Assembly (NCBI GenBank): GCA_903908245.1
Contig: CAIVRE010000012.1
Location: forward strand, 1 to 33,474
Direction of reading: 5' to 3'
DNA length: 33,474 nt
DNA from: Candidatus Omnitrophota bacterium
GTDB taxonomy: Bacteria; Omnitrophota; Gorgyraeia; Zapsychrales; Fredricksoniimonadaceae
In this document: in pieces, positions 27,526 to 33,474 of the stretch
How the letters are laid out: the number at the start of each line of letters is the position of its first letter
Position numbering within the stretch: position 1 is the stretch's first letter
Translations under genes and position numbers: made by a program
Notes under the pieces: model-generated
The model's database searches: none
The model's input: only the letters and a program-made list of their open reading frames with translations
What the model was told of the DNA's origin: nothing

Positions 27526-28599
27526 ATGATCCAGAAGCTCATAAAAATTCTGCAGGATATTAAAGAATATTTTCTCAGTTATTTCTCCACGGACCTTGGC
27601 ATTGACCTTGGTACCGCGACCACGCTTGTTTATGTTAAAGGGCAGGGCGTTGTGCTTTGCGAACCGTCTGTTGTCGCCATTGAAAAGGGGACCAACCGGG
27701 TGGTGGCGGTCGGTGACGAGGCTAAAAAGATGCTGGGCCGCACGCCTGGCAGTATTGTGGCCATCCGTCCCATGAAGGACGGTGTCATTTCGGATTTTGA
27801 AGTGACAGAGGCGATGCTCAAGTATTTCATCAAGAAAGTCCATCCCCGCAAGTTTTTTATCCATCCGTCCGTTGTTATTGCGATCCCTTCGGGGATCACC
27901 GAGGTCGAGCGGCGCGCGGTCATTGATTCGGCGATCCACGCCGGGGCCCGTGATGTTTTTCTGATCGAGGAGCCCAAAGCCGCGGCGATCGGTGTCGGCC
28001 TGCCGGTCCATGAGCCGGGCGGGAACATGATCATCGACATCGGCGGCGGCACAACGGAATTCGCGGTCATTTCACTGGGCGGTATCGTTTACGCCAAGTC
28101 CATTCGCGTCGCGGGCGACGAGATGGATACGGCGGTCATGGAATACCTGCGCAAGACGTATAACCTTATGATCGGCGAGCGTACGTCCGAGGAGATCAAG
28201 ATCCGTATCGGTTCCGGGTATCCTTTGGAAGAGGAATTGACCATGGATGTGCGCGGGCGCGATCTGATCGCGGGACTGCCCAAGACCATTTCGATCACCT
28301 CTGTTGAGATCCGCGAAGCGCTGGCGGATACTGTCCAGGCCATCGTTGACGCGGCAAAATCCACGCTGGAGCATACTCCTCCGGAGCTCGCGGCCGACCT
28401 TATTGACCGCGGTATCGTGATGGCCGGCGGTGGTTCACTGTTAAGGGGCATCGACAAGCGTATCGCCGAGGAGACCGGCCTTCCGGTCCATGTCGCGGAA
28501 GATCCGAACACCGCGGTCGTGCGTGGAACGGGCGAAACGGTCAATATGCCGGCAAGGCTCCGCAAGCGCCTGATGGCCCAGGCAAAACTGGATTTTTGA
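27526..28599 (+). CDS. mreB: Rod-shape-determining protein MreB
   Basis: This actin-like cytoskeletal ATPase forms membrane-bound filaments that guide lateral wall synthesis. It has 357 residues. The phosphate-1 loop is DLGTAT at 27-32, followed by a second nucleotide motif [16 protein letters not shown] and an adenosine loop in [12 protein letters not shown]. The N-terminus before the first strand is about 10 residues longer than in E. coli and forms a strongly amphipathic helix ([20 protein letters not shown]), fit for membrane attachment. It is the first gene of mreB-mreC-mreD-mrdA. Confidence 0.98.
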
Positions 28600-29881: not shown

Positions 29882-31573
29882 ATGCGACTGAACATTATCC
29901 GCAACGGTATTCTGGTCCTTTTTCTCCTTATGCTGGGGAACCTGTTCTATCTGCAGGTTATTCGCGGAGGATATTTTGCGCATCTTAGCCTTACGAATTC
30001 CATCCGCGTTGTTCCCTTCGAGGGGGCTCGCGGCCAGGTCCTGGACCGCAACGGCCATGTGCTTGCCGACAGCATCAAGGCCTACCACGCGGTGGTTATC
30101 CCGCAGGATATCCGTGATAAAAAGGCGCTTTTCGCTTTCATAGCCGATGTGCTGGGGGTTGAGACGTCCGTTGTCGAGAAGCGGTACCTGAAGAACAAAT
30201 TGACGCCTTTTTCACCGGTGACGCTTGCCGGCGACCTCAAGCGTTCCCAGGCCATCATGATCGAGGAGAACGCGTTCCGTTTTCCTGGCCTGATGGTCCT
30301 GGAGAAGTTTTCCCGTCGATATCCGGAGGGTGCTGGCGCGGCCCATCTGACGGGTTATGTGGGCAAGGCGGATCCGTTCAAAACGGGCGGGACGGGGTAC
30401 GGGTTGGGCGCGGAAGATGTTGTCGGGTATTCGGGGGTCGAGGAGTATTACGATGCGGTGTTGCGCGGGGAGCCCGGCGGCAGGCAGATCGAGGTTAACA
30501 GCCGCGGGCAGCAGACGCAGCTGCTGAGCGTGAGGGAGCCTTCCGACGGGCGGAGCATTACCCTGACGATCGACAGGAATATGCAGCGCGCCGCGCATGC
30601 GGCGCTCGCAGGGCGCAGGGGGGCTGTTGTTATCATGGACCCGTCCAGCGGCGAGGTTTTGGCCCTGGCGAGCTCGCCTTCGTTCGATCCGAACGCTTTT
30701 GTCGACAAGGAGAGCCGCGAAAGGGTGTCGGAGTATCTTCAGGATCCGGCGTCGCCTTTGTTGAACCGTGCTGTCTCGGGTGCGTTCCCGCCGGGATCTG
30801 TGTTCAAGATCCCGGTTACGATGGGGGGGCTGGAAGAGCGGAAGATCAAGCCGTCGACAACATATGATTGTCCCGGATATTTTCAGATGGGTGACCGGAC
30901 TTATCGCTTCCCGCATGCGTGGGGGATGCAGGACCTGCCTATGGCGCTGGCACATTCGGCCAACGAGTATTTTTTCCATATCGGGCTTTTATTGGGTGCC
31001 GACGGGATGGCCAAATATGCCCGCGTGTTCGGGCTCGGGAGCCGCACGGGGATCGACCTTGCTTTTGAGTCCAGGGGGCGCCTGTCGGGATTAAGTGTTG
31101 GCCGCTGGTATAAGGGCGATACGCTCAATATGGCGATCGGCCAGGGGTATGTGCTGGCGACTCCGGTCCAGCTGGCGCGTCTGATCGCAACGGTCGAGAA
31201 CCTCGGAATGATGCCGCAGCCGCATATTCTTCTTTCAGGAGTTGAGGCGGTTGTCAGGCCGCAGCCGGTGCATGTATCGTTCCGTAAGGATGTCTGGGAT
31301 GCGTTGCGGGCGGGGCTTGATGCGGTGGTGGCGCTCGATACCGGAACGGCTCACGCGCTGGCCAATATTCCCGGTACGGTGACATACGGCAAGACCGGAA
31401 CGGCCCAGGCAGGTCCCGGCAAAGAGGACCATGCCTGGTTCGCGGGAGTTACCCGTACCGATAAGCGTGTTATTGCGTATTGTGTTTTTCTGGAACACGG
31501 CGGTTCCAGTGCTAATGCTGTCATGCTCACGCGCGAATTTCTCACCACTCTGCGCGATCAGGGCAGTATTTGA
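29882..31573 (+). CDS. mrdA: Penicillin-binding protein 2 (elongation transpeptidase)
   Basis: This periplasmic DD-transpeptidase cross-links peptidoglycan during rod elongation and is anchored by an N-terminal helix. It has 563 residues. The dimerisation domain includes GARGQVLDRNGHVLADS and a pedestal with YSGVEEYYDAVLRG. The catalytic motifs are SVFK with Ser306 and Lys309, SAN with Ser359, and KTG at 504-506. It is shorter than E. coli PBP2 (about 630) but complete. It follows mreBCD directly, the usual order; the expected neighbour rodA is not found afterwards. A promoter for the repeat-protein gene begins within 60 bases of the stop. Confidence 0.96.
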   Translation: MRLNIIRNGILVLFLLMLGNLFYLQVIRGGYFAHLSLTNSIRVVPFEGARGQVLDRNGHVLADSIKAYHAVVIPQDIRDKKALFAFIADVLGVETSVVEKRYLKNKLTPFSPVTLAGDLKRSQAIMIEENAFRFPGLMVLEKFSRRYPEGAGAAHLTGYVGKADPFKTGGTGYGLGAEDVVGYSGVEEYYDAVLRGEPGGRQIEVNSRGQQTQLLSVREPSDGRSITLTIDRNMQRAAHAALAGRRGAVVIMDPSSGEVLALASSPSFDPNAFVDKESRERVSEYLQDPASPLLNRAVSGAFPPGSVFKIPVTMGGLEERKIKPSTTYDCPGYFQMGDRTYRFPHAWGMQDLPMALAHSANEYFFHIGLLLGADGMAKYARVFGLGSRTGIDLAFESRGRLSGLSVGRWYKGDTLNMAIGQGYVLATPVQLARLIATVENLGMMPQPHILLSGVEAVVRPQPVHVSFRKDVWDALRAGLDAVVALDTGTAHALANIPGTVTYGKTGTAQAGPGKEDHAWFAGVTRTDKRVIAYCVFLEHGGSSANAVMLTREFLTTLRDQGSI

Positions 31574-31676: not shown

Positions 31677-31726
31677 CCAACCTGTTTGGTAGGATGAAGT
31701 TGTACATCCCAACAAATAGAGGTTGG
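31677..31726 (+). promoter_or_regulatory. Leader hairpin that buries the likely Shine-Dalgarno
   Basis: CCAACCT (31677-31683) pairs perfectly with AGGTTGG (31720-31726), and a second, imperfect block closes toward an 8-base loop (31697-31704), including GGATG with CATCC. The purine run AGAGG (31718-31722), the only Shine-Dalgarno candidate, lies mostly in the 3' arm. The spacing to ATG 31736 is 13 bases, which is long. A translational switch or an mRNA-stabilising leader would fit. It matches no riboswitch class I know. Confidence 0.5.
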
Positions 31727-31735
31727 ACCTTTTAA

Positions 31736-33474
31736 ATGCCCCTTTTACTTATATATAGAATTTTGAGAAGCGCGCGCTATGCGTGTGTAAATTCTTTTAA
31801 TAAATCTTTACCTTTTTTGACCCGCTCGACCCTTCTGCTATTCTTTTTTATTTTTGTCATGTTTTCTTTTCCTTCCCTGGTTTTTGCTGCGGATATCCAG
31901 GCGATCCTTGATTCCAAGGATGGCACCAGTTCTTTTGCGGTCCAGAACAGCGATTCGCTGGATGTCGCGGCGATCGATTCATTAGGCAATGCGACATTTC
32001 ACAGGAACGTTACGGCCACAGGCCGTGTGATCGCGAATAACGGATTGGTGGTGTCATCCGACGCCACACTTAACGGCGGCCTTTCGGTCGCCGGGCATTC
32101 AACGTTCAGCACAGCAGGGGTCGCGGGGGCCCTTACGGCGGGAGCGACAACGGTCGACAGCCTTTACAGTAAAGGTTCGGTTGGTATCGGAACGCTCTCG
32201 CCCGAGAGCAGCCTGGATGTCCGCGGCGGGGTGCGGGTATGGGACGGGACGTATGATCTGGTGGGGAATACCGGGAAAAAAGGCCTTACATATGCGATCG
32301 GGCCATATGACCTTTACGTGAAAGGCGTGCTGGAAGTCGATGGAGATGTGTATCTGGGCGATTCGGTGGCGAATAATTTGAAGGTTATGGGGAAACTGCA
32401 GTTGCAGGGGGATACGGTGTATACCGGCGGGGTGACGATCGATGTGGACAGCCCGACCGCGTTGCATGTCAAGAACGGCGCGCTTGATGAGTTCATTGTT
32501 GATACTCAAAATCGTGTTGTCAAGGTCCTCAATAATGAAGTGGTTTCGGGGACATTGGCGGCGGGCAGTACGACGGTGACGGGTTTAATGAGTGTGAGCA
32601 ACGGGCTGACGGTGACTTCCGACACGACGGTGATCGGCAATACCCGGGTGTCGGGCTTGACGACGGCGACGGGTGGTTTGGTTGTTTCGGCGGGGACGAC
32701 GTTGGGCGGCAATGCCGCCATTGCGGGGACATTGGCGGCGGGCAGCACCACGGTGACGGGGCGGATGAGCGTGAGCAATGGCCTGACGGTGACCTCCGAC
32801 ACGTCCTTGAACGGGAATATGTTCGTGATCGGCGGGCGTATCGGGATAGGGACAACATCGCCGGTGGCAGGGTTGACGGTGGGCAGTGATGGCACGATCG
32901 ACCTGGCCAAGGGGCCTGATGATGTGTATGTGAAGGGCAACCTGGAAGTGGACGGGGATGTGTATCTGGGGGACGCGACGACCGATAACTTGAGGATCAT
33001 GGGGACCCTGGACCTGACCGGCCAGACGAATTACAACAGCCCGATATCGATCAGTACGGTACATCCCAACGCGCTTTTGGTGAGGCGGACGAGCAGCGGC
33101 GGGAATATTTTTAATGTCAATACGACGTCGGGTTTGGTGACGTTGACCGGCGATATGGATATCAGCGGTTCCGATACGGTGGCGGGGCTGATGAGGGTGG
33201 GCAATGGCCTTATTGTAACGGCCGATACGACCCTTAATGGTAATGCGGCGATCGCTGGCACATTGGCGGCGGGAAGTACAACGGTGAATGGGCTGATGAC
33301 CGTGACCAATGGTTTGACGGTTACGTCCGATACCACGGTGATCGGCAATACATTAGTGACGGGACTGACGACGGCGCGGGGCGGCCTGGTGGTTTCGGCG
33401 GGTACGACGTTGGGCGGCAACGCCGCGATCGCGGGGACATTGGCGGCGGGCAGCACCACGGTGACGGGGCGGAT
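31736..33474 (+). CDS. Large secreted repeat protein, adhesin- or fibre-like (partial, 3' end outside the window)
   Basis: The frame stays open from ATG 31736 to the window edge, 579 codons. A long cationic N-region of about 28 residues precedes a hydrophobic stretch (LLLFFFIFVMFSFPSLVFA) and likely cleavage before AD, as in some autotransporter-type or large surface-protein signals. The mature part is rich in Gly, Thr, Val, Ser, Asn and Leu, with short strands such as NGLTVTSDTTVIGNT repeated many times, suggesting a beta-solenoid or trimeric fibre. Two GIGTxSP motifs (GIGTLSPESSLDV, GIGTTSPVAGLTV) resemble phage tail-fibre and S74-peptidase-type proteins. It has near-identical 59-residue repeats. 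Function and anchoring are unknown; the missing C-terminus would decide between adhesin, S-layer-like protein and tail-fibre-like protein. Confidence 0.8.
   Translation, partial: MPLLLIYRILRSARYACVNSFNKSLPFLTRSTLLLFFFIFVMFSFPSLVFAADIQAILDSKDGTSSFAVQNSDSLDVAAIDSLGNATFHRNVTATGRVIANNGLVVSSDATLNGGLSVAGHSTFSTAGVAGALTAGATTVDSLYSKGSVGIGTLSPESSLDVRGGVRVWDGTYDLVGNTGKKGLTYAIGPYDLYVKGVLEVDGDVYLGDSVANNLKVMGKLQLQGDTVYTGGVTIDVDSPTALHVKNGALDEFIVDTQNRVVKVLNNEVVSGTLAAGSTTVTGLMSVSNGLTVTSDTTVIGNTRVSGLTTATGGLVVSAGTTLGGNAAIAGTLAAGSTTVTGRMSVSNGLTVTSDTSLNGNMFVIGGRIGIGTTSPVAGLTVGSDGTIDLAKGPDDVYVKGNLEVDGDVYLGDATTDNLRIMGTLDLTGQTNYNSPISISTVHPNALLVRRTSSGGNIFNVNTTSGLVTLTGDMDISGSDTVAGLMRVGNGLIVTADTTLNGNAAIAGTLAAGSTTVNGLMTVTNGLTVTSDTTVIGNTLVTGLTTARGGLVVSAGTTLGGNAAIAGTLAAGSTTVTGR
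32549..32725 (+). repeat. 177-bp coding repeat, copy A
   Basis: Encodes 59 residues from GTLAAGSTTVTG to TLGGNAAIA. Copy C at 33257-33433 has the same length and differs at 6 of 59 residues by my alignment. It is followed directly by copy B, which shares the first 24 or so residues and then diverges. Confidence 0.85.
32723..32766 (+). repeat. Exact 44-bp direct repeat, first copy
   Basis: Identical at every base to 33431-33474, where the match is cut only by the window edge, so the true repeat may be longer. It spans the start of the GTLAAGSTTVTGRM unit. Such identity inside a gene suggests recent duplication or gene conversion. Confidence 0.85.
33257..33433 (+). repeat. 177-bp coding repeat, copy C
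   Basis: A second full 59-residue unit, exactly 708 bp (4 x 177) after copy A and immediately followed by the start of another unit at 33434 that runs off the window. Confidence 0.85.
33431..33474 (+). repeat. Exact 44-bp direct repeat, second copy
   Basis: Second copy of the repeat at 32723-32766, 708 bp downstream, in the same reading frame and reaching the window edge. Confidence 0.85.

Follow-up and report, generated by a model that had tools for sequence, protein, structure and literature searches.

Mosaic adhesive trimer (MAT) proteins are displayed on the surface of the predator Bdellovibrio bacteriovorus, where they are used in prey recognition (PMC10769870). These proteins consist of a signal peptide, a conserved beta-rich N-terminal domain of ~130 aa immediately behind it, a trimeric beta-helix, and tips that are either S74 or non-S74 in type; their capping loop follows the pattern V-G-G/N-pi-X-X-P-X-X-X-L (PMC10769870). 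In the literature we searched, mosaic adhesive trimers are described from Bdellovibrio only, strain HD100 having 21 of these proteins. The Omnitrophota are uncultured, and the known candidates for contact with partner cells in this phylum are pili and giant open reading frames (PMC10066038).

Here we describe a gene at the end of a 33,474 bp Omnitrophota contig, which was analysed in its entirety and is referred to as the window. We consider it probable that this gene encodes an exported, MAT-like surface fibre adhesin that is likely trimeric—trimerisation and surface display being read by analogy with Bdellovibrio. The features of the locus are collected in Table 1.

Table 1. Features of the putative fibre locus, with positions in the window.
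Feature	Position	Strand	Basis or remark
mrdA (PBP2), conserved upstream neighbour	29882..31573	+	Pfam, relatives
Leader inverted repeat, near-perfect, over likely ribosome-binding site	31677..31726	+	conserved in 3 species of the genus
Putative secreted MAT-like fibre gene, 5' part	31736..33474	+	open at contig end
Long-n-region Sec signal sequence, residues 1-51, ...FPSLVFA/ADIQ	31736..31888	+	sequence; conservation in relatives
Conserved mature N-cap DIQAILDSKDGTSSFAVQNS...IDSLGN	31889..32035	+	alignment of relatives
Capping-loop motif 1 VGIGTLSPESSLDV	32180..32221	+	loop shared with Bdellovibrio MAT chains
YVKG-LEVDGDVYLGD module, copy 1, residues 187-246	32294..32473	+	sequence, relatives
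59-aa-periodic Gly/Thr/Val strand repeats, residues 267-343, copy 1 of 236-aa super-repeat	32534..32764	+	self-comparison
Capping-loop motif 2 IGIGTTSPVAGLTV	32840..32881	+	motif match
YVKG-LEVDGDVYLGD module, copy 2, residues 391-450	32906..33085	+	sequence
59-aa-periodic strand repeats, residues 503-579, copy 2 of 236-aa super-repeat	33242..33472	+	self-comparison; contig break

The Fibre Gene and Its Protein

The 5' part of the fibre gene (31736..33472, +) comprises 579 codons from an ATG start, with an in-frame TAA at 31733 immediately 5' of this ATG and no stop codon before the contig end. A start further downstream might in principle have removed the signal sequence, as the initial annotation cautioned; the alternative in-frame starts are TTG 31763, TTG 31817, and ATG 31859, and only the last of these would lose most of the hydrophobic core. 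The core and the position of an A-x-A type cleavage site are kept in seven aligned relatives, as judged from sequence. With dN/dS at ~0.25 against the same-genus ortholog in G001 and at 0.11 between the internal repeat copies, the frame is a true coding sequence; the gene is under purifying selection.

The mature protein is rich in Gly (15%), Thr (15%), and Val (12%). The first of its two capping loops carries GIGTLSP (residue 150; 32183-32203), and the second carries GIGTTSP (residue 370; 32843-32863). The top ungapped self-match aligns residues 267-343 with 503-579 at an offset of 236 aa, with 87% identity and a score of 327; the maximum score among 200 shuffles was 81. The main repeat offsets of 59, 177, and 236 aa are one, three, and four times 59. 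Sequence and shuffles thus bear out the description first given of this frame—a long-n-region signal, two GIGTxSP motifs, Gly/Thr/Val repeats, and an open end.

Neither Pfam nor NCBIfam gave an above-threshold match for the window frame, and the weak Pfam matches, bactofilin and IncE among them, were discounted for falling short of their cut-offs. Single-chain AlphaFold models of the shaft and tip had mean pLDDT values of 44 and 38, too low to use, and a Foldseek search of viral models with the second of these models (pLDDT 38) returned nothing at E<=0.001.

The contig breaks within the repeats: its last 30 bases are an exact repeat of 32737-32766, with no other copy in the assembly when three mismatches were allowed. 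Searches of the window's own genome with DNA, protein, a full-length relative, and a C-terminal profile did not recover the missing 3' half.

Genomic Setting

Upstream of the fibre gene the order is mreB (27526-28599), mreC, mreD, and mrdA. Pfam confirms MreB and MreC as well as the dimerisation and transpeptidase domains of the PBP, and the placement after mrdA and the cell-elongation operon stands as originally reported; mreD was assigned from its position between mreC and mrdA and from its likeness in relatives. The 33 kb window holds no phage genes, the neighbours being chromosomal operon genes, and the ordinary prophage tail fibre that was named at the outset as one possible refutation of the adhesin reading did not materialise.

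A separate leader of ~160 bp, in which a promoter-like site occurs, precedes the fibre gene. The inverted repeat in this leader spans the likely ribosome-binding site, AGAGG, and stops 9 nt 5' of the ATG. Three species of the genus have it, as a single copy per genome; searches of other relatives did not detect it, and it could govern translation of the fibre. A riboswitch was considered for the leader hairpin and rejected—there was no Rfam match and no covariation, and the folding energy over 167 nt was unremarkable (z -0.41).

Within the same GTDB family, mrdA orthologs, full or partial, were located in 24 genomes, 17 of which have readable DNA behind mrdA. The fibre is the next same-strand gene in nine of the 17, from six genera (G000, G001, G003, G008, G010, G012, G019, G022, and G030). 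The other eight carry a helicase-like gene (G009, G014), hisS (G017), an enoyl-CoA hydratase-like gene (G016), or genes for other secreted or repeat proteins (G007, G013, G021, G031) in this place; neighbour names beyond those tested with Pfam were read from sequence. Any functional tie to cell elongation implied by the initial annotation is not supported: the linkage is absent in these eight relatives, and the tie between the fibre and the elongation genes is positional only.

The end of the gene can be approached through G001, in which contig C31 likewise breaks inside the fibre, while contig C42 opens with a fibre C-terminus followed by an open reading frame and then hisS. Together with the direct succession of mrdA and hisS in G017, this agrees with a position of the fibre gene between mrdA and hisS; C31 and C42 would presumably join. 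A search for hisS in the window's own genome, run without a positive control on an assembly rated 92.4% complete (G000), gave no match, probably because the contig carrying hisS and the rest of the fibre was not binned.

Relatives in Omnitrophota

Querying genome contigs with the single protein found no relative, and querying with an alignment did. All orthologs begin the mature protein with a common short cap, [DN]I[QE]AVLDSxDGSSxFxVQDS...(I/V)DSxGN, with small variations; the core common to relatives is only ~45 aa. The cap is followed in order by GIGTxSP capping loops, the YVxxxLEVDGxVYLGD module, and the 59-aa-periodic strands. The N-cap is also present in other families of the order and phylum, and 62 of 285 sampled Omnitrophota genomes match a profile of cap plus module at E<=1e-5, many of them through the GIGT module alone. 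The best reading is that the fibre has been carried vertically in this lineage.

Complete relatives measure 1,686 aa (G003, which includes a run of unread bases) and 1,677 aa (G030), and a more distant complete relative measures 2,165 aa. Judged from sequence, the C-terminal tips of these three proteins and of the C42 fragment are all rich in beta structure; three of the four align mutually, and the G003 tip aligns only loosely. The S74 or autotransporter domains that the initial annotation suggested seeking at the C-terminus did not appear—Pfam gave no S74, autotransporter, or YadA-anchor match in the three complete relatives or the C42 fragment. One fragment reached 22.1 bits against PF25692 (phage depolymerase C-terminal beta sandwich), under the cut-off of 25 bits, and no PDB relative of the tips was found.

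Proteins with GIGT-type loops were also observed beyond the syntenic orthologs. Contig C15 of the window's own genome encodes at ~50,028-50,831 (L085:8029-8832, -) a separate protein of 267 aa that has a signal sequence, contains a GIGTxNP loop, and ends in a Peptidase_S74 domain scoring 58.7 bits; this is the sole S74 domain in the genome, and the protein is an exported, fibre-like protein of S74 type, distinct from the window gene. Another Omnitrophota genome (JAHFGL010000030.1, L100:6506-17940) has three tandem exported GIGT-type proteins of 2,165, 938, and 549+ aa that differ in their C-termini. In G025, a genome of the same family, several GIGT-repeat proteins are spread over contigs C21, C62, C91, and C139, one of them 2,980 aa long, which suggests a multi-copy GIGT repertoire in some species. 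A contig filed as viral (IMGVR_UViG_3300031864_000001, L108:7209-10757) encodes a GIGT protein of 1,182 aa whose N-terminus resembles a signal sequence and whose end resembles a coiled coil, and for which Pfam gave no match at E<=0.1; this contig may be bacterial rather than viral.

Relation to Bdellovibrio MAT Proteins

A profile built from the window protein and eight Omnitrophota relatives, run against 177,635 PDB sequences, gave four matches, all of them Bdellovibrio MAT chains: 8OND/bd2133 (5e-9), 8ON4 (2.7e-4), 8OL4 (3e-4), and 8OML (1e-3). The matches can be identified as MAT proteins by the name bd2133 in 8OND and by their label 'cell wall surface anchor family protein', which is also reported for the MAT group (PMC10769870). 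A four-sequence sub-profile again retrieved MAT chains (best 8OND, 4e-7), and one full-length relative by itself matched 8OL4 and 8OJN at ~0.003; the reversed-sequence profile gave no MAT match in the PDB (best E 1.7). The window protein alone matched no MAT chain in a phmmer search of the PDB, so the link requires the profile.

The match spans a GIGT shaft module of ~50-110 aa and neither the N-terminus and cap nor the tip, and the GIGTxSP loop conforms to the MAT capping-loop motif. The PDB contains no structure of the Bdellovibrio N-terminal domain. The fibre thus appears MAT-like and recognisably related to the Bdellovibrio proteins, a relation that rests on the shaft module, not on the cap or tip. 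In this light, the initial proposal of a surface adhesin or appendage is well supported, the protein being exported, fibre-like, non-prophage, and most likely a surface adhesin, while its suggestion of a possibly new family gives way to the relation of the shaft to MAT fibres.

Alternative Explanations

The position of the gene invites the idea that the fibre is a scaffold in the periplasm or cell wall, acting together with the MreBCD-PBP2 elongation machinery. The fibre lies directly 3' of mrdA on the same strand in nine of 17 family genomes, and a weak Pfam match, scoring 15.6 bits where the cut-off is 27.9, points to the bactofilins, which are polymer-forming cytoskeletal proteins; however, the gene is missing from this place in the remaining eight, has its own leader and promoter-like site, and evolves faster than the neighbouring mrdA (dN/dS 0.25 versus 0.08), and where other families have a fibre with this cap, its gene adjoins unrelated genes. 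We consider such a scaffold unlikely. A role in building an extracellular coat or matrix, in place of adhesion through the tip, would account for the length and repetitiveness of the protein and would have company in the giant coat or adhesion open reading frames known in Omnitrophota (PMC10066038). The C-terminal domains differ among relatives, as expected of binding tips, and this makes a coat quite improbable.

Phage databases return a number of matches to the repetitive part of the protein—PHROG tail fibres match the shafts of relatives, weaker matches of PHROGs with unknown function fall on the window frame, cyanophage fibres match the window repeats weakly (E ~1e-4), and a second IMG/VR query gave two shaft matches. 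These could point to a domesticated or resident fibre from a phage, tailocin, or extracellular injection system; yet the phage matches, among those listed, span only residues ~203-562 and never the N-terminus, the tip has no match in phage records, and IMG/VR gave no relative with the N-cap. Phage tail fibres lack a Sec signal, whereas this protein has one, and its gene keeps its place across genera in surroundings free of phage genes, so a phage origin of this kind seems very unlikely. The long-n-region signal and the Gly/Thr/Val repeats also resemble the stalks of autotransporters, and an autotransporter and a haemagglutinin are among the weak plasmid matches. A trimeric autotransporter (type Vc) or another barrel-anchored adhesin could therefore be imagined, with its anchor beyond the contig end. 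The complete relatives of 1,686, 1,677, and 2,165 aa, however, end in other beta-rich tips and have no YadA-anchor or autotransporter match in Pfam, which renders a barrel anchor highly improbable.

Proposed Function and Significance

As a MAT-like surface adhesin, the fibre would be directed out of the cytoplasm by its Sec signal sequence, and the short conserved cap at the mature N-terminus may hold the cell-proximal end, serving as an anchor. The beta repeats and GIGTxSP capping loops would build a stiff shaft, in which three chains most likely intertwine as they do in the MAT proteins of Bdellovibrio, and the beta-rich C-terminal tip would bind a ligand, for which a glycan on a surface or another cell is the most likely candidate. 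Judging by relatives, the full fibre would be ~1,700 aa long and presumably crosses the outer membrane. Trimerisation, outer-membrane crossing, surface display, and adhesion are all inferred here from the Bdellovibrio system.

Parts of the Omnitrophota are thought to be predatory or symbiotic (PMC10066038), so a role in attachment to prey or host cells is plausible, and the fibre may possibly be used on such cells. A bolder idea, which we put forward tentatively and regard as rather doubtful, is that Omnitrophota evolved their own lineage-specific, cap-anchored MAT-like system at a fixed site by the elongation operon for recognising prey or hosts; if true, MAT-like prey-recognition fibres would be common to unrelated predatory or symbiotic phyla. 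A conserved, apparently exported MAT-type fibre offers a concrete candidate recognition molecule for Omnitrophota, and suggests that the MAT architecture extends beyond Bdellovibrio.

Comparison with Known Systems

With the MAT proteins of Bdellovibrio bacteriovorus the fibre shares a signal peptide, a beta-rich shaft, the same capping loop, a C-terminal tip that varies (as seen in its relatives), and surroundings without phage genes. It differs in belonging to another phylum, where a single gene keeps a fixed place on the chromosome, in a short cap with a core of ~45 aa that may or may not correspond to the conserved Bdellovibrio N-terminal domain of ~130 aa, and in tips without a PDB relative. 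The S74 or intramolecular-chaperone fibres of phages, such as the T5 L-shaped fibre and the K1F endosialidase, resemble it in their GIGTxSP-type loops and, by way of the MAT structures, in a beta-helical trimer architecture (PMC10769870); in contrast, the complete Omnitrophota orthologs have no S74 domain, lie away from phage genes, and carry a Sec signal. The giant open reading frames of Omnitrophota likewise encode large proteins that are exported and have been proposed to act in adhesion, in the same phylum; those frames exceed 20 kb and are poorly conserved (PMC10066038), whereas the fibre gene is ~5 kb in complete relatives, syntenic, and marked by a conserved cap and repeat grammar.
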